Source: Gemmatimonadota bacterium (GTDB lineage: Bacteria; Gemmatimonadota; Gemmatimonadetes; Longimicrobiales; Gaopeijiaceae). Taken from it: 64,000 bases of DNA. Shown here piece after piece: positions 576 through 47,713 of the stretch. Both the position numbers and the translations under genes were made by a program. Within the stretch, counting starts at the first letter, position 1. Each line of letters begins with the position of its first letter. The notes under the pieces are model-generated. The model saw nothing but the letters and a program-made list of their open reading frames with translations. It was not told the origin of the DNA and ran no database searches. Location of the stretch: positions 310,001-374,000 of the forward strand of contig JAUIEJ010000001.1 in the NCBI GenBank assembly GCA_030428885.1. Direction: 5' to 3'.

Positions 576-2579
576 TCAGGCTCGGCCCCGGAGCCGAAGC
601 ACGGCGCCCACGGCGGCTTCGGCGGTGATGCCGAAGCGACGATAGAGCTCGTCGTAGGGCGCCGACGCGCCGAAGTGGTCGATCCCCACCGAGACGCCCT
701 CCGCGCCCACCCAGCGGGCCCATCCCCCGGTGGCGCCGGCTTCCAGCGAAACCCGCACCGACACCGACGGCGGGAGTACCTGGTTGCGGTAGGCGCCGTC
801 CTGCCGCTGGAAGAGGAACCACGACGGGAGGCTCACGACCCGGGTGGGCACGCCCTGCTTCTGCAGCCGTCCCCGGGCCTCCAGGGCCAGCGCCACCTCG
901 GATCCGCTGGCCAGCAGGATCGCTTCGGGCTCGCCGCCGTCGGCTTCGGCCAGGACGTAGCCTCCCCGCTCCAGCCCCCGGGCCGAGGCGAGGGTGGATC
1001 GATCGAGGGCCGGCACCTTCTGCCGCGTGAGCGCCAGGAACGCCGGACCGTCGGTGCGCTTCACCGCCATGCGCCACGCCACGGCCACCTCTTCGGGGTC
1101 GGCGGGCCGGAGGTCCATGAGGTTGGGAATCAGGCGGAGCGCCATGAGCTGCTCCACCGGCTGGTGGGTGGGACCGTCTTCGCCCAGGCCGATGGAGTCG
1201 TGGGTGAAGACGTAGGTCACCGGCTGTTCCATGAGGGCCGCTAGCCGAATGGCGGGCCGCATGTAGTCGGAGAAGATCAGGAAGGTGCCGCCGAAGGGGC
1301 GAACGCCCCCGTGGAGGGCCATCCCGTTGAGGATCCCCCCCATGGCGTGTTCCCGGATCCCGAAGTGGACGACCCGGCCGTCGGGGCGCCCCGCCAGGAG
1401 GCTCCCGCCGTCGGCGATGTCGGTCTTGTTCGACCCGCCCAGGTCGGCCGATCCGCCCACGAGCTCGGGAATGCGTCGGGCCAGCCCGTTCAGCACCTTG
1501 CCCGAGCTGCTCCGGGTGGCGTCGTCCTTCCCCGCCAGGTCCGGGATCTCGGCGTCCCAGTCGTCGGGGAGGGCCCGGCGCACCACCGACCGCTCGAACT
1601 CGGCGGCCAGTTCGGGATGAGCCTCCCGGTACGCGGCGAAGCGGGTGGTCCATTCCGCCCGGAGGGCGCCGCCCCGCTCCCCGGCCACCTGCCAGCCGGC
1701 CCGGGCCTCGTCGGGCACGTGGAAGGGCTCCAGCGACGGGTAGCCCAGGTTCCGCTTCGTGGCCTCCACCTCGTCGGCGCCCAGGGGCGATCCGTGGGCG
1801 CCCGACGTGTCGGCCTTGTTGGGGCTGCCCCAGGCGATGACGGTCTTGAGGACGATGAGGGTGGGGCGTCCGGTCTCGGCCTTCGCCGCGTCCATGGCCC
1901 CATCGAACGCCGCCAGGTCGTTTCCGTCGTCCACCTCGAGCACGTGCCAGCCGTACGCGGCGAAGCGTGCGCCCTGGTCGGTGCTCGAGGCCAGATCGGT
2001 GCGGCCCTCGATGGTGATGGAGTTGTCGTCGAAGACCCAGATGAGCTTGCCCAGGCCCTGGTGTCCGGCCAGGGCGGCGGCCTCGTGGCTGATGCCCTCC
2101 ATGAGGTCGCCGTCGGAGCAGAATGCGATGGTGTGGTGGTCGACCACGGTGTGTCCCGGGCGATTGAACCGGGCGGCCAGCCAGCGCTCGGCCAGGGCCA
2201 TGCCGACGCTGTTGGACACGCCGGCGCCCAGGGGTCCCGTAGTGGTCTCCACGCCGGGGGTGTGGCCCACCTCCGGGTGTCCGGGCGTGGCCGATCCCCA
2301 CTGGCGGAAGTTGCGGATGTCGTCGAGGGACACCTCGTACCCCGAGAGGTGAAGCAGGGAGTACAGGAGCATGGAGGCGTGGCCCACGGAGAGCACGAAC
2401 CGGTCCCGGTCCGGCCACGAGGGGTCGGCGGGGTCGTGCTTCAGGTGACGGGTGAACAGGCTGTAGCCCGCCGGCGCCAGGGCCATGGGCGTGCCGGGGT
2501 GGCCGGAGTTCGCCGCCTGCACGGCGTCCATGGAGAGAACGCGAACGGCGTCGACGCAGAGCCGGTCCAGGTCGGTCAT
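576..2579 (-). CDS. tkt: Transketolase
   Basis: This is a thiamine-diphosphate enzyme that moves two-carbon ketol units between sugar phosphates in the non-oxidative pentose phosphate pathway, in the cytosol. The 667-residue length matches the family. The N-terminal TPP domain has SGHPGTPM near residue 25, the TPP/metal motif [13 protein letters not shown] at 155-167 with the paired Asn at about 186 in DDNSITIEG, and a later pyrimidine-binding segment [20 protein letters not shown]. The first motif residue is Ser rather than Gly (SDGD instead of GDG). The ATG is used; it lies 40 nt downstream of the leuS stop on the same strand, so the two genes are probably co-transcribed. Confidence 0.96.
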
Positions 2580-37870: not shown

Positions 37871-40375
37871 TCAGGCCCGGGTCGAGCGCCCGCCCTCACC
37901 GCCTGCCGGATCCACGTCGGCGCCCAGCCCCGAACACAGCCGCAGCAGATCGGCGAAGACGCCCGCCGCCGTCACCGCGGGACCGGCGCCAGGACCCCGG
38001 ACCACCAGGGCGTTGTCGGCGTATCGATCGGAGACGAAGCGCACCACGTTGTCGGTGAGGTCCATGGAGGCGAAGGGATGCTCGGCCGGCAGCGCCTCGA
38101 TGCGGGCGGCGGCCCGTCCCTCGGCGTCGACCCGGCCCACGAACCGGAGCACCCGGCCCTGACTCGCCGCGTTGGCGCGGCGGCGTTCCATGGCCTCGTC
38201 GACGCGACCGAGTCCCTGGAGGAACCCGTCCACGTCGACCCCTTCGAGTTCGGACGGCACAAGGGACTCCACCTCCACGTCCTGGAGTTGGAGATCCAGT
38301 CCCATCTCCCGCCCCAGGATCACCAGCTTCCGGGCCACGTCGGTGCCCGACAGGTCGTCCCGGGGATCGGGCTCGGTGAAGCCCTTTTTCCGGGCCTCGG
38401 CCACCAGGGCCGAGAAGGGTCGGGAGCCGTCGAAGACGTTGAACAGATAGGCCAGGGTGCCCGAGAGGATGCCCTCTACGAAGTGCACCCGATCGCCGGT
38501 GGTGCGCAGGTCCCGGAGCGTCGTCAGGATGGGGAGCCCGGCCCCCACCGTGGACTCCTGGAGGAACCGGGCGCCCCCCGACCGCCGGCGTCGGTGCATG
38601 TCGTGGTACGCCTTCAGGGGGGCGGCGCCGGCGAGCTTGTTGGCGGTGATGACGTGGATGCCCCGCTCCATCCAGGCGCCGTACCGTTCGGCGGGGGCCG
38701 ACGCCGCGGAGCAGTCGATGATCACGGCGTGGGGCAGGTGGTCGGCGCGGATGTGGCGCGCGAAGGCGTCGAGGTCGGCGGGCTCGGAGGCCTCGCCGAG
38801 GGCGTCGCGCCACGCCGTCCAGGGAATTCCCCCGTCGGAGCGGACCATGCGGGTGGAGCGGGTGATGCCCCGGAGCCTCAGGTCCAGGCGGGCGTCCCGG
38901 GCGATGCGCTCCAGGGCGGCCGTGACCTGGTCCAGGAACTGGGCCCCCACGTTGCCCGGACCCACCAGGCCCACCGACACCGTCCGGGGCGAGAGGTAGA
39001 AGGCGGTGTGCACGGTGCGGAGCGCCCGCCGGGCGTCGGCGCCGTCGATGACCGCCGAGATGTTGCGCTCCGACGATCCCTGGGCGATGGCCCGGACGTT
39101 GACGCCGGCCCGGCCCAGGGCGCCGAAGAGGCGGCCCGCCACCCCGGGCACGCCCCGCATGCCGTCGCCCACCACGGCCAGGATGGCGCATCCCTCCTGG
39201 ACGTCCACGGCCTGGATCTGCCCCCGGGCCAACTCCCGGGCGAAGGCCTCTTCCACCACCCGGGCCGCGTCGGCGGCCACTTCGTCGCGCACCGCCACGC
39301 AGATGGAGTGCTCCGAGCTGCCCTGGGAGATCACCACCACCGAGATGTGGGCCTCCCGGAGGGCATCGAAGAGGCGGGCGGCGGTGCCGGGCACGCCGAT
39401 GAGGCCGGCGCCCCGGAGGTTCACCAGCGCCATGCCGTCGATGACCGTGATGCCCTTCACCCGGTGCTCGTCGTCGCCCACGGCGCCGATGCGGGTGCCG
39501 GGGGCGTCGGGGGCGAAGGAGTTGCGGATCACCAGGGGGATCCCGGCGTCGATGAGGGGCGCCATGGTGGAGGGGTGGATCACCCGGGCGCCGAAGTAGG
39601 CCAGCTCCATGGCCTCGTCGTAGGTGAGGCGCGGCACCACCGACGCCTCGGTCTCGATGCGGGGATCGCCGCTGAGCACGCCGTCCACGTCGGTCCAGAT
39701 GACGGCCCGCTCGGCCTCGAGGAGCTTCGCCACGATGGAGGCTGAATGGTCGCTGCCGTTGCGCCCCAGGGTCGTGGGACTCCCGGCCGCCGTCCGGGCC
39801 ACGTAGCCCGTGATCACCACCACGTCGGCGTCCACGTCGACCAGCGCGTCGGCCAGGAGGGAGGACGAGGCGGACCAGTCCACCGCCGGCCCCAGTTCGC
39901 CCGGGCCCACCACCAGGAACCGGCGGGCGTCGAGCCAGGTCGCCGACGCGGCGGCGTCGGCTGCCACCCGGGCGGCCAGGAGCCGCGCCGACCAGAACTC
40001 GCCGAATCCAGACACCAGCCCGGCGGCTTCCGGCGGCACGGCCCGGAGCAGGCGGGTGGAGGCCACCACGGCCCGGATGGTGTCCAGGTCCTCATCCAGC
40101 GCCGCCACCCAACGATCCCGGGCGGCGCCGTCCACGAGCCCGTCCGCCAGGGCGGTCAGGTCGCGGCTGAGGGCGGCCACGCCGGCGTCGACCTCGGCGT
40201 CGTCGAGGGCCAGGTCCAGGAGGGCCAGGAGGCGGTCGGTGACCCCGGCCGGGGCCGACACCACCACGGCCCGGCGCGACGGGCCGGCGTCGGCCACGAT
40301 GCGGGCCACCCGGGCGAACTCGTCGATGCCGGCCAGGCTCGAGCCGCCGAACTTGTGGACGGTCCAGCGGTTCAT
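37871..40375 (-). CDS. thrA: Bifunctional aspartokinase / homoserine dehydrogenase
   Basis: This is an 834-residue fused enzyme that phosphorylates aspartate and reduces aspartate semialdehyde to homoserine, feeding threonine and methionine synthesis. The aspartokinase half has VHKFGGSSLAG (residues 7-17), TLGRNGSDHSASIVAKLLEAERAVIWTDVDGV and two ACT-type segments (VNLRGAGLIGVPGTAARLFDALREAHISVVVISQGSSEHSICVAV; AILAVVGDGMRGVPGVAGRLFGALGRAGVNVRAIAQGSSERNISAVI), which usually bind an amino-acid effector. The homoserine dehydrogenase half starts near 468 with VGLVGPGNVGAQ (NAD(P)-binding) and contains TANKLAGAAPLK and VEGILSGTLAYLFN. Its ATG overlaps the hisIE stop by 4 nt (ATGA), so it is the last gene of the histidine operon. 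Confidence 0.95.
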   Translation of the reverse strand: MNRWTVHKFGGSSLAGIDEFARVARIVADAGPSRRAVVVSAPAGVTDRLLALLDLALDDAEVDAGVAALSRDLTALADGLVDGAARDRWVAALDEDLDTIRAVVASTRLLRAVPPEAAGLVSGFGEFWSARLLAARVAADAAASATWLDARRFLVVGPGELGPAVDWSASSSLLADALVDVDADVVVITGYVARTAAGSPTTLGRNGSDHSASIVAKLLEAERAVIWTDVDGVLSGDPRIETEASVVPRLTYDEAMELAYFGARVIHPSTMAPLIDAGIPLVIRNSFAPDAPGTRIGAVGDDEHRVKGITVIDGMALVNLRGAGLIGVPGTAARLFDALREAHISVVVISQGSSEHSICVAVRDEVAADAARVVEEAFARELARGQIQAVDVQEGCAILAVVGDGMRGVPGVAGRLFGALGRAGVNVRAIAQGSSERNISAVIDGADARRALRTVHTAFYLSPRTVSVGLVGPGNVGAQFLDQVTAALERIARDARLDLRLRGITRSTRMVRSDGGIPWTAWRDALGEASEPADLDAFARHIRADHLPHAVIIDCSAASAPAERYGAWMERGIHVITANKLAGAAPLKAYHDMHRRRRSGGARFLQESTVGAGLPILTTLRDLRTTGDRVHFVEGILSGTLAYLFNVFDGSRPFSALVAEARKKGFTEPDPRDDLSGTDVARKLVILGREMGLDLQLQDVEVESLVPSELEGVDVDGFLQGLGRVDEAMERRRANAASQGRVLRFVGRVDAEGRAAARIEALPAEHPFASMDLTDNVVRFVSDRYADNALVVRGPGAGPAVTAAGVFADLLRLCSGLGADVDPAGGEGGRSTRA

Positions 40376-40995
40376 CGTCGGGACTCCAGTTCGGCCAGGA
40401 GGTCGTCCAGCGTGGCGCCGGCGGCCAGGAGGCCGGCCAGGGCGTGGTAGAGCAGGTCGGCGGCCTCCTCGGTGGCCCGGGGGGCGTGGCCCTGGACCAG
40501 GGCCTGGATGAGCTCGGCGGTTTCCTCGCCGAGCTTCTTCACCCGGAGGTTGGGGTCGTCCAGGAGGCGCACCGTGTAGCTGTCCGGGGGGCGGGTGGCG
40601 GCCCGGTCCCGGAGGGTGGCCCACACGGCGGGGAGGGTGTCTTCGGCCCGGGGGTCGGCGTGGTCGCCGAAACAGGTGGCCTCGCCGGTGTGGCAGGCGG
40701 GGCCTGCCGGCCGCACCCGGGCCAGGAGGGTGTCGCCGTCGCAGTCGCCGTGGAGCGAGACGACCTCCAGCACGTGCCCGCTGGTTTCGCCCTTCATCCA
40801 GAGGGACTCCCGGGAGCGGGACCAGAAGTGGAGGCGCCCCGTCTCCAGGGTGCGCTCCAGGGCGTCGCGGTTGGCCCAGGCCACCATGAGCACCCGGCCG
40901 TCGTGGGCGTCCTGGGCCACCACGGGAAGCAGCCCCCGGTCGTCGAAGACCAGGGCGTCGATCTGGTCGGGTGTCGCCACGCGTCGGTCGGTCAT
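40372..40995 (-). CDS. hisIE: Bifunctional phosphoribosyl-AMP cyclohydrolase / phosphoribosyl-ATP pyrophosphatase
   Basis: This is a 207-residue fusion for histidine steps 2 and 3. The N-terminal cyclohydrolase part has [79 protein letters not shown], with the zinc-binding CDGD...C...C residues visible. The C-terminal pyrophosphatase part (from about 120) has [42 protein letters not shown]...[14 protein letters not shown], the MazG-like EE.E...A motif. It overlaps hisF upstream and thrA downstream by 4 nt each. Confidence 0.95.
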
Positions 40996-41756
40996 GCCGC
41001 CTCCCGCACGTCCAGGCCCCACCCCCGCAACGCCGACTTCAGGGCGCCCACCGTGGTGAGTCCATCGTGGAGGATGCCCGCCAGCAGGGCCGCCGACGCG
41101 TGCCCCTCCACGAAGGCGTCCCGGAGGTGGGCGGCCTCGCCGGCCCCCCCCGAGGCCACCACCGGGACGGCCACGCGGTCGGCCACCGCCCGGGTCAGCT
41201 CCAGGTCGTAGCCCGTGCGGACCCCGTCGCGGTCGATGGAGGTGAGGAGGATCTCGCCGGCCCCCAGTTCGGCGCACCGGCGGGCCCAGGCCACGGCGTC
41301 CAGGTCGGTGCGGGTCTTCCCGCCGTGGGTGTAGTGGCGCCACCCGCCGCCGTCCTCCCGGGCCGCGTCGATGCTGGCCACGATGCACTGGCTGCCGTAG
41401 CGCCGGGCGCCCTCGGTGAGGAGTCCCGGATCCCGGACCGCCGCCGAGTTGACGCTGATCTTGTCGGCACCCGCCCGGAGGAGGGGACCGATGTCGTCGA
41501 CGCTCCGCACCCCGCCTCCCACCGTGAGGGGCACGAAGAGCACCTCGGCCGTGCGCTGCACCGTCTCCAGGAGGGTGCCCCGGTTCTCCCGGGTGGCGGA
41601 GATGTCCAGAAACACCACCTCGTCGGCGCCCTCGGCCTCGTAGCGGGCGGCGAGCTCCACCGGGTCTCCCACGTCCCGGAGTCCCTCGAAATTCGTGCCT
41701 TTCACGACCCGTCCGTCCTTCACGTCGAGACAGACCACGACCCGGGGCTTCAGCAT
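40992..41756 (-). CDS. hisF: Imidazole glycerol phosphate synthase subunit HisF
   Basis: This is a 254-residue TIM barrel that, with HisH, makes imidazole-glycerol phosphate and AICAR from PRFAR and glutamine. Signatures are [35 protein letters not shown] (the first catalytic Asp in CLD), [69 protein letters not shown] (the second catalytic Asp in SIDRDG), [15 protein letters not shown]. The start overlaps nothing; its stop overlaps the hisIE start by 4 nt. It follows the usual his order with HisH further upstream in this operon. Confidence 0.96.
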
Positions 41757-41760
41757 GGCG

Positions 41761-42306
41761 TCACTCCTCGTCGTCCCACGTGAGAGCCACCGACCCCTTG
41801 GTGCTGAACACCCGTTCGCCCTCCCTCAGGGCCTGGCGCAGGGCGAGGCCCGTGGCCTTCACCGCCGCCTCCACCACGTGGTGTTTGTCCCGCCCCCGGT
41901 CCACCACCACATGGAGGGTGGCGCCGAGGTTCACCGCCAGGCTCTGGAGGAAGTGCTCGTAGAGGTTCGAGGGCAGACGTCCGTCGTACCAGGCCCGCCC
42001 CCCCAGGTCCACGGCGGCCCGCACCAGGGCGTCGTCCATGGGCACCGTGGCCCACCCGTAGCGCTCGGCCCGCTCGGGCACCTCCCGGGCCAGGGCCAGC
42101 CCCAGGGTGATGGCCACGTCTTCCACCAGGTGGTGCTTCAGGTCGCCCGTGGCCTGGAGCGAGAGGCCCAGGCCCGCGTATCGGGCCAGGGTCTCCACCA
42201 TGTGGGTCAGGAAGGGCTCGTCGGTGGTGACGTCGATGTCGCCTCCCGACGCCGAGAGTTGCAGGCGGATGTTGGTTTCGCGGGTCTCGCGGCGAAGCGT
42301 GGTCAT
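41761..42306 (-). CDS. hisB: Imidazoleglycerol-phosphate dehydratase
   Basis: This is a 181-residue, monofunctional HisB with no phosphatase domain, catalysing the sixth step of histidine synthesis with bound manganese. The metal-binding histidine motifs are seen as [35 protein letters not shown] and [21 protein letters not shown], with [20 protein letters not shown] between them. It normally begins with R..R.T.ET.I....D, here [29 protein letters not shown]. Its ATG overlaps the hisA stop by 4 nt and it ends 4 nt before hisF. Confidence 0.96.
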
Positions 42307-43037
42307 GGGGTGTCTCGGTTCGGGGAACCGCCCCACCGTTCGGCCACGTCGGTGGGGCGGAGGGTTCCGGTGTAGAGGGCCATGCCCAGCACGGCCCCGT
42401 GGGCGCCGGCGGCGTCCAGCGCCGCCAGGTCGTCGAGGGTGGTGATGCCGCCGGAGATCCAGACCGGGTGGGCCGACGCGTCGATGACCGCGGCCATGGC
42501 GCCCACGTCGATCCCCTCCATGCGGCCCTCCCGCCCCACGTCGGTGCAGAGCACCCCGGCCAGGGGCGTGTCGGCGAGGGAGCCGACGAAGTCCCGGACC
42601 TCGAGCCCGGACCCCTCCGTCCACCCCTTCCGGAGCACCCTCCCGTCGCGGACGTCGGCGGCCACCACCACCCTCCCGGGGTGGCGGAGGGCCAGGGCCT
42701 CGAGCCACGGTCGGTCGTCCACGGCCCGGGTGCCTACCACGATGCGGTCCGGGCCGTCGGCCAGAAGGGCGTCGGCCCGGGCGTCGTCCCGGATGCCCCC
42801 GCCCACCTGCACCTCGGCCTCGGTGGCCTCCACCACCTCGGCGATGCGTCGGGCGTTGTCGCCGGTGCCCAGGGCGGCGTCCAGGTCCACCACGTGGAGG
42901 TGCCGGAAGCCCAGGTTCCACCAGCGGCGGGCCGCGGCCACCGGCGAAGGGAGCGACACCCGCTCGGCGTCGGGGCGCCCTCCCACGAGCTGCACGCAGC
43001 GGCCGCCCTTCAGATCCACCGCCGGGACCGCGATCAC
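42303..43037 (-). CDS. hisA: Phosphoribosylformimino-AICAR ribotide isomerase HisA
   Basis: This is a 244-residue TIM-barrel isomerase acting just before HisF. It opens VIAVPAVDLKGGRCVQLVGGRP with the first catalytic Asp in AVD. It continues GFRHLHVVDLDAALGTGDNARRIAEV, EVQVGGGIRDDARADALLADGPDRIVVGTRAV and GVLCTDVGREGRMEGIDVGAMAAVIDASAHPVWISGGITTLDDLAALDAAGAHGAVLGMALYTG, where the second catalytic Asp is in CTDVGREG. The GTG at 43037 overlaps the hisH stop as GTGA, and its stop overlaps hisB by 4 nt. Confidence 0.95.
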   Translation of the reverse strand: MIAVPAVDLKGGRCVQLVGGRPDAERVSLPSPVAAARRWWNLGFRHLHVVDLDAALGTGDNARRIAEVVEATEAEVQVGGGIRDDARADALLADGPDRIVVGTRAVDDRPWLEALALRHPGRVVVAADVRDGRVLRKGWTEGSGLEVRDFVGSLADTPLAGVLCTDVGREGRMEGIDVGAMAAVIDASAHPVWISGGITTLDDLAALDAAGAHGAVLGMALYTGTLRPTDVAERWGGSPNRDTP

Positions 43038-43648
43038 GACGCCTCCCCGGCCGGGAGAGCCGCGGCGGCGATGAAGTTGGCGATGAGGCGGCGTCCGGGC
43101 CCGCTGCTCTTCTCCGGGTGGAACTGGACGCCCCAGGTCCGGTGGCGCCGCACGGCGGCGGCGAAGGTGTCGTCTTCGTAGCGGGTGCGGGCCACGACGT
43201 CCTGCTCCTCTTCGGGTTCGCAGACGAAGGAGTTGGCGTAGTATGCGGTGAGTCGGGGGAGGCCGGCGAAGAGGGGATCGTCGGCGGGCTCCACGTCGTT
43301 CCACCCCATCTGGGGCACGATGGAGGTCCGGAGGCGCCGCACCCGTCCGGGCACCACGCCCAGACCCCGTCCCTCGCCCTCGGCGCTCTCGTCGAAGAGC
43401 AGTTGCATGCCCAGACAGATGCCCAGGCAGGGCAACCCCCGGGCCAGGGCGTCCCGCACCGGTGCCGGATCGGTGGGGAGGGCGGCCACGGCGGCGGCGA
43501 AGGCCCCCACGCCGGGAAGCACCAGGGCGTCCAGGGCCAGGGCCCGGGACCAGTCCCGGGTCACCTCCACCCGGGCACCGGCCCCTTCCAGCGCCTTGCC
43601 CAGGGAGTGGAGGTTGCCCACCCCGTAGTCGAAGAGGGCCACGTTCAT
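43034..43648 (-). CDS. hisH: Imidazole glycerol phosphate synthase subunit HisH
   Basis: This is a 204-residue class I glutamine amidotransferase that supplies ammonia to HisF. The nucleophile Cys lies in LPCLGICLGMQLLFDES, and the catalytic His-Glu pair in WGVQFHPEKSS. It opens NVALFDYGVGNLHSLGKALEGAGARVEV, and has LVLPGVGAFAAAV and YYANSFVCEPEEE, all typical. It overlaps hisC upstream by 4 nt and hisA downstream by GTGA. Confidence 0.96.
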   Translation of the reverse strand: MNVALFDYGVGNLHSLGKALEGAGARVEVTRDWSRALALDALVLPGVGAFAAAVAALPTDPAPVRDALARGLPCLGICLGMQLLFDESAEGEGRGLGVVPGRVRRLRTSIVPQMGWNDVEPADDPLFAGLPRLTAYYANSFVCEPEEEQDVVARTRYEDDTFAAAVRRHRTWGVQFHPEKSSGPGRRLIANFIAAAALPAGEAS

Positions 43649-44730
43649 GGGGCGCCCTCCGCCACCATGGAGTCCCATGCCTCGAGAAAACGCTCCAGGA
43701 GCGGCCACGGCGCCACGGTGATGCGCACGGCGTCGCCCACGTCGGGACAGGCGGGAAACGGACGGACGGCCACGTCTCTCGAGCGCAGGGCCAGGGCCGT
43801 GTCCCGGGCCGTGCCCTCGGCCACGGGCACCAGCACGAAGTTGGTGGACGAGGGGAGGGGACCGGCCCCCCGGGCCCGGAGTTCGGCCGCGAGCCGCTCC
43901 CGGTTCGCCCGGCATTCGGCCACGGTCCGGGCCACCCACCCGTCGTCGTCGGCCAGGGCAGCGCAGGCCGCGGCTTCGGCGAGACGGCTCACCTTGTACG
44001 GGCCCCGGCTCTTCTCCACCTCGGCCACCAGATCGGCGCGGCCCACGCCGTAGCCGACCCGCAGTCCCGCGAGACCGTAGGCCTTGGAGAGGGTGCGCAC
44101 CACGAGGGTGCGGGGGTGGGTCACGGCCCGGGGAATCCAGCTCTCCTCGGCGAAGTCGGCGTAGGCCTCGTCCACGAGGATCACGGGTCCGTCGGGGCCC
44201 GCCGCATGCACGAGGGACTCCATCCACTCCACGGGGGCCACGTGCCCGGTGGGGTTGTTGGGACGGCAGACGTACACCATGACGGGATCGCCCTCGAGGA
44301 GGGTCGCGGGGTCGTCCAGCGCCCGGGACCACGGCACGCCCCGGGCGAGGCGTCCGTTCATGCGGGAGAGGGGCTCCACCATGCTGAAGGTGGGGGCGGC
44401 GTAGGCCACCGTGCCGCCGTCTTCGGCCAGGGCCCGCCACAGGGAGTCCAGGATGTCGTCGGAGCCGCACCCGGTGGCCACCTGCTTGGGGTCGATCCCA
44501 TGCCGCCGGGCCACCGCCTCCCGCAGATCGTCGGCGTAGAGGTGGGGGTAGCGGGCCAGGGCATCGGGCGCGGCGCCCCGGACGGCGGCGAGAGCGCCGG
44601 GAGGCGTGCCCCACAGGTTGGTGTTGTCGCTCAGATCCACCGCCACCGGACGCCGGTCGGGGGTGTAGCGGGTGAGGGTCCGGTAGTCGGGGCGGGGCAG
44701 GGCGCCCCGGGGCGTGTCGGCGGGGCTCAC
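43645..44730 (-). CDS. hisC: Histidinol-phosphate aminotransferase
   Basis: This is a 361-residue PLP-dependent class II aminotransferase for the seventh step of histidine synthesis. Visible are VDLSDNTNLWGTPPGAL and ARYPHLYADDLREAVARRHGIDPKQVATGCGSDDILDSLWRALAEDGGTVAYAAPTFSMV, VCRPNNPTGHV (substrate Asn), VILVDEAYADFAEESW (PLP-binding Asp), and TLSKAYGLAGLRVGYGVG with the PLP Lys near residue 215. The GTG at 44730 overlaps hisD as GTGA; the stop overlaps hisH by 4 nt. Confidence 0.94.
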   Translation of the reverse strand: MSPADTPRGALPRPDYRTLTRYTPDRRPVAVDLSDNTNLWGTPPGALAAVRGAAPDALARYPHLYADDLREAVARRHGIDPKQVATGCGSDDILDSLWRALAEDGGTVAYAAPTFSMVEPLSRMNGRLARGVPWSRALDDPATLLEGDPVMVYVCRPNNPTGHVAPVEWMESLVHAAGPDGPVILVDEAYADFAEESWIPRAVTHPRTLVVRTLSKAYGLAGLRVGYGVGRADLVAEVEKSRGPYKVSRLAEAAACAALADDDGWVARTVAECRANRERLAAELRARGAGPLPSSTNFVLVPVAEGTARDTALALRSRDVAVRPFPACPDVGDAVRITVAPWPLLERFLEAWDSMVAEGAP

Positions 44731-46064
44731 GGGGCCGGTTCCGGGTCGGAGGAGGGAGCGCCGCGGAGCCGGACGGCGGCGGCGTGGCCCGGAAGCCCTT
44801 CGGCCTCGGCCAGGGCCGCCACGGGCCCCGCCATGTCGGCGGCGGCGTCGGGCGACAGCTCCTGCCAGGTGTACGAGCGGAGGAAGTCCAGCACGCCCAG
44901 GCCGCTGAAGCTCCGGGCGGTGCCCGCCGTGGGGAGCACGTGATTGGCGCCGGTCATGTAGTCGCCGTAGGCCACCGACGAGGGCCCTCCGAGGAAGACC
45001 GTGCCCGCCGTGGTGATGCGGGCGCGGTCGGCGTGGGGATCCCGGGTGCAGAGGGAGAGATGTTCGGCGGCGTAGGCCTGGGTGAAGGCCAGCATCTCGG
45101 CGTGGTCCCGGGCCAGGAGGAGGGCCCCGCAGGTGGCCAGGGCCTCCCGCACCACGTCGGCCCGGGGAGTCCGGGCCACCAGCCCGGCCAGCTCCCGCCG
45201 CACCGCCTCCAGGAGCGAAGGAGAGGTGGTGACGAAGGCCACGGCGGCGTCGGGATCGTGCTCCGCCTGGGCCACCAGTTCCGCGGCGAGCCACCGGGGC
45301 GGGGCGCGTCCCTCGTCGGCCACCACCAGCACCTCGGAGGGGCCCGCCGGCGAGTCGATGATGACCTCTCCCGCCACCTGGCGTTTGGCCTCCAGCACCC
45401 AGCGGTTGCCCGGACCCACCACGGCGGCGCAGCGAGGGACCGACGCCGTACCGAAGGCCATGGCCCCCACCGCGCCGGCGCCCCCCACGGCGAAGAGGCG
45501 GGTGGCGCCGCCGATGGCGGCGGCGGCCTGGACCACCGCCGAGGGCAGTCCGTCGGGGCCGGGAGGCGAGCAGACCACGATCTCGCCCACCCCCGCAGCC
45601 CGGGCGGGCACCACCCCCATGAGCACCGACGACGGGTAGGCGGCCCGGCCTCCGGGAGCGTAGACCCCCACGGCCTCCAGGGGCACGAACACCCGTCCCA
45701 GGCGCACGCCGGGCTCGACCTCCAGTTCCACGTCGGCGGGGATCTGGGCCCGGTGGAAGGCCTCGATGTTGCGCGCCGCCCGGGAGAGGGCCGCCGTCAC
45801 GTCGGCGTCCAGCGACTCCAGCGCTTCGCCCCAGCGCTCCCGGGGCACCTCCAGGGCCGACAGGGTCACGCCGTCGAAGCGACGGGCGAAGTCGAACAGG
45901 GCGGCGTCGCCGTCTCGCCGCACCCGGCTCAGGAGGTCCCGGGTGGCGGACTGGACGTCGCTCTCGTCCGACGGCCGCCGCTCGAAGAGCAGACGGCGCT
46001 GGGCGTCGGATAGCCCGGCCACGTCGCCTTCCACGGCCACGGTGAGCATGGATGGATCGGTCAT
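44727..46064 (-). CDS. hisD: Histidinol dehydrogenase
   Basis: This is a 445-residue, zinc-dependent enzyme converting histidinol to histidine (the last two oxidations). Signatures are GVYAPGGRAAYPSSVLMGVVPARAAGV, VAVVG-type AAVVGPGNRWVLEAKRQVAGEVIIDSPAGPSEVLVVADEG, AELVAQAEHDPDAAVAFVTTS (with catalytic EH) and GDYMTGANHVLPTAGTARSFSGLGVLDFLR (metal-binding His). It begins at the ATG at 46064, overlapping the hisG stop by 4 nt. Its C-terminus overlaps hisC as GTGA. Confidence 0.96.
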   Translation of the reverse strand: MTDPSMLTVAVEGDVAGLSDAQRRLLFERRPSDESDVQSATRDLLSRVRRDGDAALFDFARRFDGVTLSALEVPRERWGEALESLDADVTAALSRAARNIEAFHRAQIPADVELEVEPGVRLGRVFVPLEAVGVYAPGGRAAYPSSVLMGVVPARAAGVGEIVVCSPPGPDGLPSAVVQAAAAIGGATRLFAVGGAGAVGAMAFGTASVPRCAAVVGPGNRWVLEAKRQVAGEVIIDSPAGPSEVLVVADEGRAPPRWLAAELVAQAEHDPDAAVAFVTTSPSLLEAVRRELAGLVARTPRADVVREALATCGALLLARDHAEMLAFTQAYAAEHLSLCTRDPHADRARITTAGTVFLGGPSSVAYGDYMTGANHVLPTAGTARSFSGLGVLDFLRSYTWQELSPDAAADMAGPVAALAEAEGLPGHAAAVRLRGAPSSDPEPAP

Positions 46065-46924
46065 GGCATGAGCCGTTCGATCTTGGTGACCAGGATGCCT
46101 TCGGCGCCCAGCGCCTTGAGGCGGGCGATGGTCTGGTAGACCCGGTCGGCGTCCACCACGGCGTGGGCCGCCACCCACGCCCCGGCGTCGGCCACCTCCA
46201 CGATGGTGGGACCGTTGATGCCCGGTAGCACGGCCCGCACCTCGTCCAGCCGGCTCCGGGGCACGTTGGCCATGAGGTACCGCTTCGCCCGGGCCCGCAG
46301 CACCGACTCCAGGGCCGTCACCACCTCGTCGAGAAACTCGCGCTTGGCCGGGTCGGCCAGGGCGGCGGGATCGGCCACCACCCGGGCGGTGGACTCCAGG
46401 ATCGTGGCCACCTCCCGCAGGCGGTTCACCCGGAGCGTCGAGCCGGTGGAGACCAGATCGACGATGACGTCGGCCACGCCCAGATGGGGGGCGATCTCCG
46501 TGGCTCCCGATACCGGGGCGATCTCGATGGAGACGTCCATGGCCTCGAAGAACGACCGGGTGATCTGGGGAAACGAGGTGGCGATGCGCGACCCCGCCGG
46601 GATGTCGGCCGGATGGCGGATGGCGCTCTCTTCGGGCACGGCCACGGCGAGACGGCAGCGCCCGAAGCCCAGATCCAGGAGCTCCTCCACGGTGCGGCCG
46701 CTCTCGGCCACCAGGTCGGCGCCCGTGACCCCCAGGTCGGCGGCGCCGTCGGCCACGTATTCGGGAATGTCGGCGGCCCGGACGAAGATGGCCTGGAAGT
46801 CGGGCCCGAGTTGGGCCAGAAGCGCCCGGGAGGAGCTGAACTCGGCCTTGAGGCCGGCGGTTTCGAAGAGATCCAGGGCCTTCTCGGAGAGGCGGCCCTT
46901 GTTGGGCAGGGCGATGCGGAGCAC
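46061..46924 (-). CDS. hisG: ATP phosphoribosyltransferase (long form)
   Basis: This is the first and committed enzyme of histidine synthesis, joining ATP and PRPP; it is normally feedback-inhibited by histidine. It has LRIALPNKGRLSEKALDLFETAGL, DIPEYVADGAADLGVTGADLVAESG, IATSFPQITRSFFEAMDVSIEIAPVSGATEIAPHLGVADVIVDLVSTGSTLRVNRL and a C-terminal regulatory domain (PGINGPTIVEVADAGAWVAAHAVVDADRVYQTIARLKALGAEGILVTKIERL), so it is the long, HisZ-independent type. The GTG at 46924 is chosen (287 aa): the upstream in-frame GTG at 46987 lies at the end of the attenuator U-tract. No strong Shine-Dalgarno is seen. It follows the leader/attenuator by about 60 nt. Confidence 0.93.
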   Translation of the reverse strand: MLRIALPNKGRLSEKALDLFETAGLKAEFSSSRALLAQLGPDFQAIFVRAADIPEYVADGAADLGVTGADLVAESGRTVEELLDLGFGRCRLAVAVPEESAIRHPADIPAGSRIATSFPQITRSFFEAMDVSIEIAPVSGATEIAPHLGVADVIVDLVSTGSTLRVNRLREVATILESTARVVADPAALADPAKREFLDEVVTALESVLRARAKRYLMANVPRSRLDEVRAVLPGINGPTIVEVADAGAWVAAHAVVDADRVYQTIARLKALGAEGILVTKIERLMP

Positions 46925-46987
46925 GGGAGCGATGGGGTTCGGGATTCCAGGGGACCGCAGGCGGCTCGGGACTACCCGGGGGACCAC

Positions 46988-47033
46988 AAAAAGCGCCGCG
47001 GCCCGTCCGGAACGATCCGGCGGGCCGCGGCGC
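46988..47033 (-). terminator. his attenuator terminator hairpin
   Basis: On the minus strand GCGCCGCGGCCCG (47033-47021) and CGGGCCGCGGCGC (47005-46993) form a perfect 13-bp stem, extended by CCGG/CCGG after a 1-nt bulge, closed by a 6-nt loop (ATCGTT). It is immediately followed by TTTTT (46992-46988). This is a textbook intrinsic terminator, lying 21 nt after the leader-peptide stop and before hisG. Confidence 0.9.
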
Positions 47034-47103
47034 GGAGAGGGGAGGACGGTGCGACTACCGGGCGCACACCCCCATCTCCACGGTGCCCGTCGGGACGCCG
47101 TGG
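47021..47103 (-). promoter_or_regulatory. his attenuator: pause hairpin and antiterminator pairing
   Basis: Segment 1 (47103-47091, CCACGGCGTCCCG on the minus strand, from the last His codon) pairs with segment 2 (47089-47078, CGGGCACCGTGG) as CCACGG/CCGTGG plus CCC/GGG around GAC. Segment 2 can instead pair with segment 3 (CCGCGGCCCG, 47030-47021, the 5' arm of the terminator): CGGGC with GCCCG, a 2-nt bulge, then CGUGG with CCGCG including one G-U pair. The 1:2, 2:3 and 3:4 alternatives are mutually exclusive, as in enterobacterial his/trp attenuation. Stalling at the His codons would free segment 2 and favour read-through. Confidence 0.8.
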
Positions 47104-47141
47104 TGGTGGTGATGATGCCGGTGGAGCCGCTTCGTCGTCAT
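47055..47141 (-). CDS. hisL: his operon leader peptide
   Basis: This is a 28-codon reading frame, ATG at 47141, TAG at 47057-47055. Its product has seven His in eight residues (KRLHRHHHHHHG, residues 4-15); codons 9-14 are CAT CAT CAC CAC CAC CAC. Its only plausible role is to sense charged tRNA-His: the ribosome stalls at these codons when histidine is short and the downstream RNA folds into the antiterminator. Its last codons and stop precede the terminator. No Shine-Dalgarno precedes the ATG, and the predicted transcription start lies 1 or 2 nt upstream, so translation may be leaderless. Confidence 0.85.
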   Translation of the reverse strand: MTTKRLHRHHHHHHGVPTGTVEMGVCAR

Positions 47142-47148
47142 GACTGGC

Positions 47149-47177
47149 AATCAACACCGCCCCCCGGACCGGGTCAA
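47149..47177 (-). promoter_or_regulatory. Candidate sigma70-type promoter of the his operon
   Basis: On the minus strand TTGACC (47177-47172) and TTGATT (47154-47149) are separated by exactly 17 bp, a good -35 and a weak -10. A start 6-7 nt past the -10 would be near 47142, adjacent to the leader ATG at 47141. The rest of the gap up to 47296 holds the Shine-Dalgarno of the divergent lipoprotein gene; no other clear element is seen. Confidence 0.55.
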
Positions 47178-47296: not shown

Positions 47297-47713
47297 ATGA
47301 CGACCCCTGCCACGACCCCCCTGGGCATTCTACTCCTGGCCGCGACGGTGGGACTCGGAGCCTGCTCCGACGACGACCCGGCGGCCCCCACCGCACCCCG
47401 GCGGTACGCGGTGGAGGTGAGCGGCGAGACGTTCGTGGTGGAAGTGGCCTCGGCGGCCCAGATCGACGCCCTGGAGGCGCGCCTGGCCTCGGGAGTGCGC
47501 GGGGTGCTGGCCGGCGAGATCGAGGCGGGAGACGGGGGCTACAACGGCCAGTGGAGCTGGCACATGACGCCCGAAACGGTCCACGCCCCCGACCTGGCCG
47601 TGGAGGTGTGCGACGGCCGACCCAGCTTCGTGGAAGGCGATCTGGCCTACTGGCTCGACACCGTGGGGAGCTTCTGCCCGTGGGGGGCGAAGGTGGTGGC
47701 CCGGGTGGAGTGA
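47297..47713 (+). CDS. BP74-like lipoprotein
   Basis: This is a 138-residue lipoprotein (lipobox GAC, Cys23, then SDDDP). The mature part is FVVEVASAAQIDALEARLASGVRGVLAGEIEAGDGGYNGQWSWHMTPETVHAPDLAVEVCDGRPSFVEGDLAYWLDTVGSFCPWGAKVVARV, which resembles the BP74-related domain of Dictyostelium calmodulin-binding/adhesion proteins and its bacterial relatives (GY..GWS.HLDP......AIEVCD......V......FCPW). The conserved Cys pair (VCD, FCPW) probably forms a disulfide. The ATG is preceded by a near-perfect AAGGAGGA at 47283-47290. It lies divergent from hisL. Function in bacteria is not established, and the family call is by eye. Confidence 0.72.
   Translation: MTTPATTPLGILLLAATVGLGACSDDDPAAPTAPRRYAVEVSGETFVVEVASAAQIDALEARLASGVRGVLAGEIEAGDGGYNGQWSWHMTPETVHAPDLAVEVCDGRPSFVEGDLAYWLDTVGSFCPWGAKVVARVE

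Follow-up and report, generated by a model that had tools for sequence, protein, structure and literature searches.

A predicted ribosome-mediated his attenuator with a leaderless leader mRNA in Gemmatimonadota

The his operon of a Gemmatimonadota bacterium is very probably controlled by a ribosome-mediated transcription attenuator with a leaderless leader mRNA. The prediction is based on sequence elements, their conservation, the promoter-to-ATG spacing and a modelled pairing switch; from these we infer the start site, translation, stalling, termination and histidine response of the attenuator. The element lies in a 64,000-nt stretch of contig JAUIEJ010000001.1 (positions 310,001 to 374,000), hereafter the window, in which all coordinates are given. 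Ribosome-mediated attenuation of his operons is classical.

Results

Organization of the his leader region in the window

A complete set of elements from promoter to terminator had been proposed on the minus strand upstream of hisG, and the coordinates of its elements were confirmed in the sequence. The leader peptide ORF (47055-47141, minus strand) encodes MTTKRLHRHHHHHHGVPTGTVEMGVCAR in 28 codons, from ATG at 47141 to the stop codon TAG at 47057-47055, and carries no Shine-Dalgarno (SD) sequence. Its regulatory codons, identified by translation and conservation, read HRHHHHHH, with seven His in eight codons (47100-47123, minus strand). Both the coordinates and the peptide agreed base for base with the original prediction. 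A run of at least six His in eight residues was found in any frame nowhere else in the window, and windows randomised by an order-1 Markov model gave a mean of 0.0 such runs (0 of 20). Occurrence of the His run by chance is excluded.

The −35 element TTGACC (47172-47177, minus strand) is separated by a 17-nt spacer from the −10-like element TTGATT (47149-47154, minus strand), and the latter by 7 nt from the leader ATG. TTGATT is a poor match to a −10 element; at this position in the aligned upstream regions, relatives carry TAGCTT/TACCTT-like sequences. A generic promoter and terminator scan of the window picked up neither the his promoter nor the his terminator. The −10 element lacks the A at position 2 that the scanner requires.

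The terminator stem-loop (46993-47033, minus strand), with a folding energy of −43 kcal/mol, starts 21 nt past the leader stop codon. Region 3, its 5′ arm, covers 47033-47016, and region 4 is its 3′ arm. By folding, the stem consists of 13 contiguous pairs plus 5 past a bulge, and is followed by the U-tract TTTTT (46988-46992, minus strand), just as a 13-bp GC stem ending in five U had been described. Assignment of this terminator to the upstream neighbour gene (47297-47713) was considered and rejected, because that gene lies on the opposite strand and is divergent.

Downstream, the hisG ORF (46061-46987, minus strand; NCBIfam TIGR00070, E 2.7e-66) comprises the core and a probable GTG start at 46924. 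The remaining his operon, hisD, hisC, hisH, hisA, hisB, hisF and hisIE, extends over 40372-46178 (minus strand, NCBIfam). Directly past hisIE is thrA (37871-40624, minus strand, NCBIfam), encoding a bifunctional aspartate kinase/homoserine dehydrogenase; as it is on the same strand as the his genes, the his transcription unit may include thrA.

Control at the level of translation, in which the hairpin would hide the hisG start, is documented for some attenuators (PMC9413887). Here, however, the hairpin ends in a U-tract about 64 nt ahead of the probable hisG GTG, and U-tracts past the hairpin were found in almost all relatives, so that translational control is extremely improbable.

Conservation of the His-run leader

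The search for hisG covered 58 relatives and 394 phylum genomes, and the loci it gave directly were supplemented with about 100 upstream regions. Counts refer to 138 distinct regions upstream of long-form hisG, each at least 200 nt long and nearly all from Gemmatimonadota; those outside the phylum were three Archangium loci, one archaeal locus and one actinomycete locus. The His-run leader was detected in 128 of the 138 regions, in line with the expectation that the same leader would precede other Gemmatimonadota his operons, and in 122 it was accompanied by a recognised terminator. This association of leader ORF and terminator, together with the conserved 1:2 hairpin and antiterminator arm described below, leaves a ribosome-mediated his attenuator, as first proposed, the best reading of the element. 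The nearest named relatives by HisG belong to Longimicrobiales, Gemmatimonadales and other Gemmatimonadota metagenome-assembled genomes (MAGs), the closest with 78-85% identity, and agree with the suggested origin of the window from a Gemmatimonadota genome.

Regions without the His leader are exemplified by one genus-level lineage, g11 (L021, L133, L145, L150, L152, L155). In this lineage hisG lies directly behind another ORF, which by eye resembles a STAS-domain protein. No leader was found in the region examined for the short-form HisG genes of family f3. A covariance model built on the His leaders (R1) matched 126 of 249 phylum genomes at E <= 0.001, and some of the weaker matches were due to chance.

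Several individual loci are of separate note. In L218 (G031), a second full His attenuator is located about 9.5 kb from the first on the same contig, before a gene judged by eye to be hisC-like; the his operon here appears to be split, with the switch present twice. The contig of L064 comes from a MAG labelled Planctomycetota, its HisG groups tightly with those of Gemmatimonadota, and the contig is probably mis-binned. In the actinomycete locus (L085:2919-3060, a Jiangellales MAG), the short His leader MTCSVVRRHHHSPWAAGARA precedes a terminator with the 5′ arm AGGCCCAC, which could pair with GTGGGCT right past the His codons; the layout is alike and the sequence different. The Archangium (Myxococcota) his loci L075, L076 and L083 carry the leader, and the HisG of these three, the sole Myxococcota covered, falls in the Gemmatimonadaceae-type branch of the tree. 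The grouping suggests that operon and switch were likely transferred together.

The 1:2 hairpin

As in the original proposal, a 1:2 hairpin is predicted at the end of the His run (47103-47078, minus strand; CCACGG/CCGTGG plus GTCC/GGGC, by folding and covariation), its exact start being the last base of the penultimate His codon. The hairpin overlaps the last His codons, sequesters the antiterminator arm and excludes the 2:3 pairing. It was folded by 81 of 98 leaders, and the number of double-changed cells, 16, was reached by 1 of 500 shuffles. The typical form in the phylum is CGGCCC-GAC-GGGTCG, and the hairpin is longer in the family of the window. Within its genus the stem differs by species, with CACGG:CCGUG, CACGA:UCGUG (L061) and CACAG:CUGUG (L012). 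The 1:2 hairpin is thus conserved with compensatory changes.

The antiterminator

Region 2, GACGGGCACCGTGGAG (47076-47091, minus strand), repeats the terminator 3′ arm and, by pairing and covariation tests, pairs with the terminator 5′ arm. It encodes the conserved Thr-Gly of P-T-G, and its GACGGG is located at 47091-47086. For the anatomy of the phylum we used 120 unique leaders, with a median of 27 codons and a median of 6 His in the best 9 residues. In these leaders GACGGG with a following YCG comes directly past the His run, typically 5 or 8 nt downstream of the last His codon, and is read as Pro-Thr-Gly-Arg or similar. This segment duplicates the terminator 3′ arm and is complementary to the 5′ arm, GGCCCGTC. 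Pairing between region 2 and the terminator 5′ arm amounted to 98-99% at core positions, and compensated changes were observed, such as GACAGG with CCTGTC (L024) and GGCGGG with CCCGCC (L157).

The pairing energy was −21.6 kcal/mol for own partners against −20.5 ± 0.21 kcal/mol for swapped ones, and none of 2000 permutations was as good. In register the pairing was 86%, as compared with 49% at most in slid registers, and 3 pairs differed on both sides. Relatedness was retained in both comparisons. The covariation between region 2 and the terminator arm is modest, because the conserved core hardly varies, and we take it as supportive and not decisive. RNAalifold on a 48-sequence alignment returned the terminator as the only structure, which is expected, since the 1:2 and 2:3 pairings vary or exclude 3:4. 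A rigid region 2/3/4 pattern matched 5 of 41 genomes and was too strict.

The original prediction placed the antiterminator in a 2:3 stem that shares the terminator 5′ arm (47081-47063 with 47053-47032; 47032-47081 overall, minus strand). Such a stem, GTGGAGATGGGGGTGTGCG with CGCACCGTCCTCCCCTCTCCGC in the window, does exist by folding, is stable and is kept in the genus by compensating changes. Its overlap with the terminator 5′ arm is, however, only about 2-3 nt, and in the minimum-energy fold both structures coexist; the basal extension that covers the arm had been missed. In the minimum-energy fold of the window with the ribosome on the His codons and the 3′ arm not yet made, the apical stem and a basal helix form one hairpin of −47 kcal/mol. 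The basal helix consists of GACGGGCACCGTGG paired with the terminator 5′ arm (GACGGG...:...CCCGYC). According to this model, the terminator-blocking part is the basal helix, which is found phylum-wide; by comparison of the leaders, the apical stem is a genus-level addition that is absent as such elsewhere in the phylum. The apical stem alone was thus rejected as antiterminator, and the exact model first put forward is quite improbable.

Folding model of the switch

The attenuator with its basal antiterminator was analysed in a stalled-ribosome folding model, in which pairing of the terminator 5′ arm with the ORF is followed while the 3′ arm is still missing. Stalling of the ribosome at the first His led to pairing of the terminator arm with the ORF in 119 of the 120 leaders, at a mean of 0.79; the mean was 0.43 without ribosome and 0.40 with the ribosome at the stop codon. 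Controls under stalling gave 0.26 for dinucleotide-shuffled and 0.65 for synonymously recoded leaders. For the window the corresponding values were 0.68 (stalled), 0.00 (no ribosome) and 0.16 (ribosome at stop).

With the ribosome parked at the stop codon, pairing between region 2 and the terminator arm stayed above 0.4 in half of the leaders (60/120), and therefore folding by itself gives no clean account of the histidine-replete state. Timing, steric separation of the regions by the ribosome or the 1:2 hairpin would have to contribute. At equilibrium the terminator was the favoured structure of the complete RNA also in the presence of a stalled ribosome (mean 0.82); therefore, the switch must be kinetic. 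The antiterminator and the terminator are mutually exclusive, as region 2 covers the terminator 5′ arm.

A probable leaderless leader mRNA

In 99 of 118 leaders TTGAC was present 30-42 nt ahead of the leader ATG, as compared with 2 of 590 control windows, and an SD-like motif preceded the leader ATG in 3 of the 118. Given this spacing and the near-absence of SD-like motifs, the start site probably coincides with the leader ATG or lies within 1-2 nt of it, which would give a leaderless leader mRNA.

The same blueprint with other amino acids

Several of the weaker matches to R1 turned out to be attenuators that share the layout of the His leader and carry other codon runs. Leaders with Tyr/Phe runs (L220, L223, L224, L227-L230, L232, L235, L242-L271) are located, where the gene was tested, ahead of genes for phenylalanine 4-monooxygenase (phenylalanine hydroxylase) and DAHP synthase. 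In these leaders CACGGG serves as the repeated arm and CCCGTG as the terminator arm, both sides differing from those of the His set. The covariance model built on the Tyr/Phe leaders (R2) matched 66 of 200 genomes; it gave no match in the genome of the window. In L221 (match 1450-1596, minus strand), a Thr/Ile leader, MRFCPITTTMTIITRLSRRGGVLAFVR, which starts MRFCPITTTMTIITRLSRRGG, lies with its terminator directly ahead of the homoserine kinase gene thrB. A search of the window's own genome for a Trp-leader pattern gave 4 matches, no more than the reversed control.

It is possible, at somewhat less than an even chance, that a single ancestral leaderless module gave rise, by exchange of its codon run, to the switches of his, aromatic and threonine genes throughout Gemmatimonadota, and that it entered Archangium together with the his operon. 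The parts of such a module would be a promoter directly at the ATG, a codon run, an arm repeated from the terminator right after the run, and the terminator.

These paralogous leaders also bear on a reading in which the ORF encodes a functional small His-rich peptide, for example one that binds metal, and the terminator is unrelated. A His-rich peptide kept across a phylum would suit this reading. Yet conservation is confined to the His run and to those residues that the pairing segment encodes, in 109 of 120 cases the observed pairing was higher than after synonymous recoding of the leader, the element adjoins his genes, and the paralogous leaders exchange His for Tyr/Phe or Thr/Ile to suit the downstream enzyme. 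A small functional peptide is thus very improbable.

Search for known regulatory RNAs

The Rfam His_leader family (RF00514) gave no match in the window and exceeded its cut-off in 0 of 28 genomes (the window's own and 27 relatives), the control exceeding it in 1 of 14 genomes; one sub-threshold match was found, in another genome of the family. For six homologous loci, a search of Rfam at E <= 1 gave two sub-threshold matches only, s2m and anti-hemB, which are unrelated to his control and were treated as chance. T-boxes and the repressor HisR govern his genes in other phyla (PMC9413887), and control by one of these or by another ligand-binding RNA would make the His run incidental. Against this, no Rfam family reached gathering level in the window, no T-box appeared at E <= 1 in the six loci, and the whole leader is short, at about 150 nt, and contains a translatable His run; other modes of his control rank among the least probable readings.

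Discussion

For the ribosome-mediated attenuator, the following mechanism is proposed. Transcription would start at the leader ATG or a few nt from it, and the ribosome would initiate on the bare 5′ AUG. When charged His-tRNA is low, the ribosome would stall on the His run and prevent or outcompete the 1:2 hairpin, the start of which falls within the last His codons. Region 2 (GACGGG...) could then pair with the terminator 5′ arm (...CCCGCC) once this is transcribed, and the polymerase would enter hisG. With ample histidine, the ribosome would pass region 2 to the stop codon, and either 1:2 would re-form behind it or the ribosome would separate region 2 from region 3; the −43 kcal/mol terminator would then form and transcription would end at about 46988.

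No paper on attenuators in Gemmatimonadota and no description of a his regulator of this phylum was found in the literature searched, most subscription journals lying outside it. The element described here is a probable regulator of his genes for most of a poorly studied, mostly uncultured phylum. It also provides a large natural set of predicted leaderless attenuators, with initiation on a bare 5′ AUG built into the switch, in which transcription-translation coupling without SD sequences becomes testable. The conserved GPTGRG-type tail of the peptide indicates that RNA pairing can shape a peptide sequence. The class of mechanism is known; the phylum-wide, leaderless set for several amino acids is the more interesting part, its common origin being only putative.

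The element resembles hisL of E. coli and Salmonella (RF00514) in its His codon run within a short ORF, the 1:2, 2:3 and 3:4 hairpins and the terminator before hisG. In contrast to hisL, the Gemmatimonadota leader lacks an SD sequence, is apparently leaderless, and has its antiterminator arm within the ORF, immediately downstream of the His codons. His leaders had been considered best documented in Proteobacteria; outside that group, his leader peptides are already published for Firmicutes, including the B. cereus group, Erysipelotrichales and others (PMC2965389, PMC9413887). The Firmicutes leaders likewise place His runs, a terminator and an antiterminator before his genes, a likeness in the described elements; the phylum differs, as does the leaderless start predicted here. 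The trp attenuators of Corynebacterium and Streptomyces share with the present element short GC triples common to antiterminator and terminator (gGCC-rGCy-GGCC), and differ from it in the amino acid and in where the shared segment lies and how it reads (PMC1262725).

The phylum-wide set has its closest parallels among leaderless leader peptides. Canestrari and co-workers reportedly described mycobacterial poly-Cys ORFs as leaderless leader peptides in 2020. In Streptomyces lividans, trpL1, leuL and ilvL are documented as such (PMC8079986), and trpL is leaderless in Sinorhizobium meliloti (PMC7298713). Common to the leaders of S. lividans, S. meliloti, mycobacteria and, by prediction, Gemmatimonadota are an ORF at the 5′ end of the transcript and runs of regulatory codons, and several of the former have intrinsic terminators as in Gemmatimonadota. 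No His example appears among the leaderless leaders of the latter two papers (PMC8079986, PMC7298713). The Gemmatimonadota elements differ from them in following one phylum-wide blueprint for His, Tyr/Phe and Thr/Ile.
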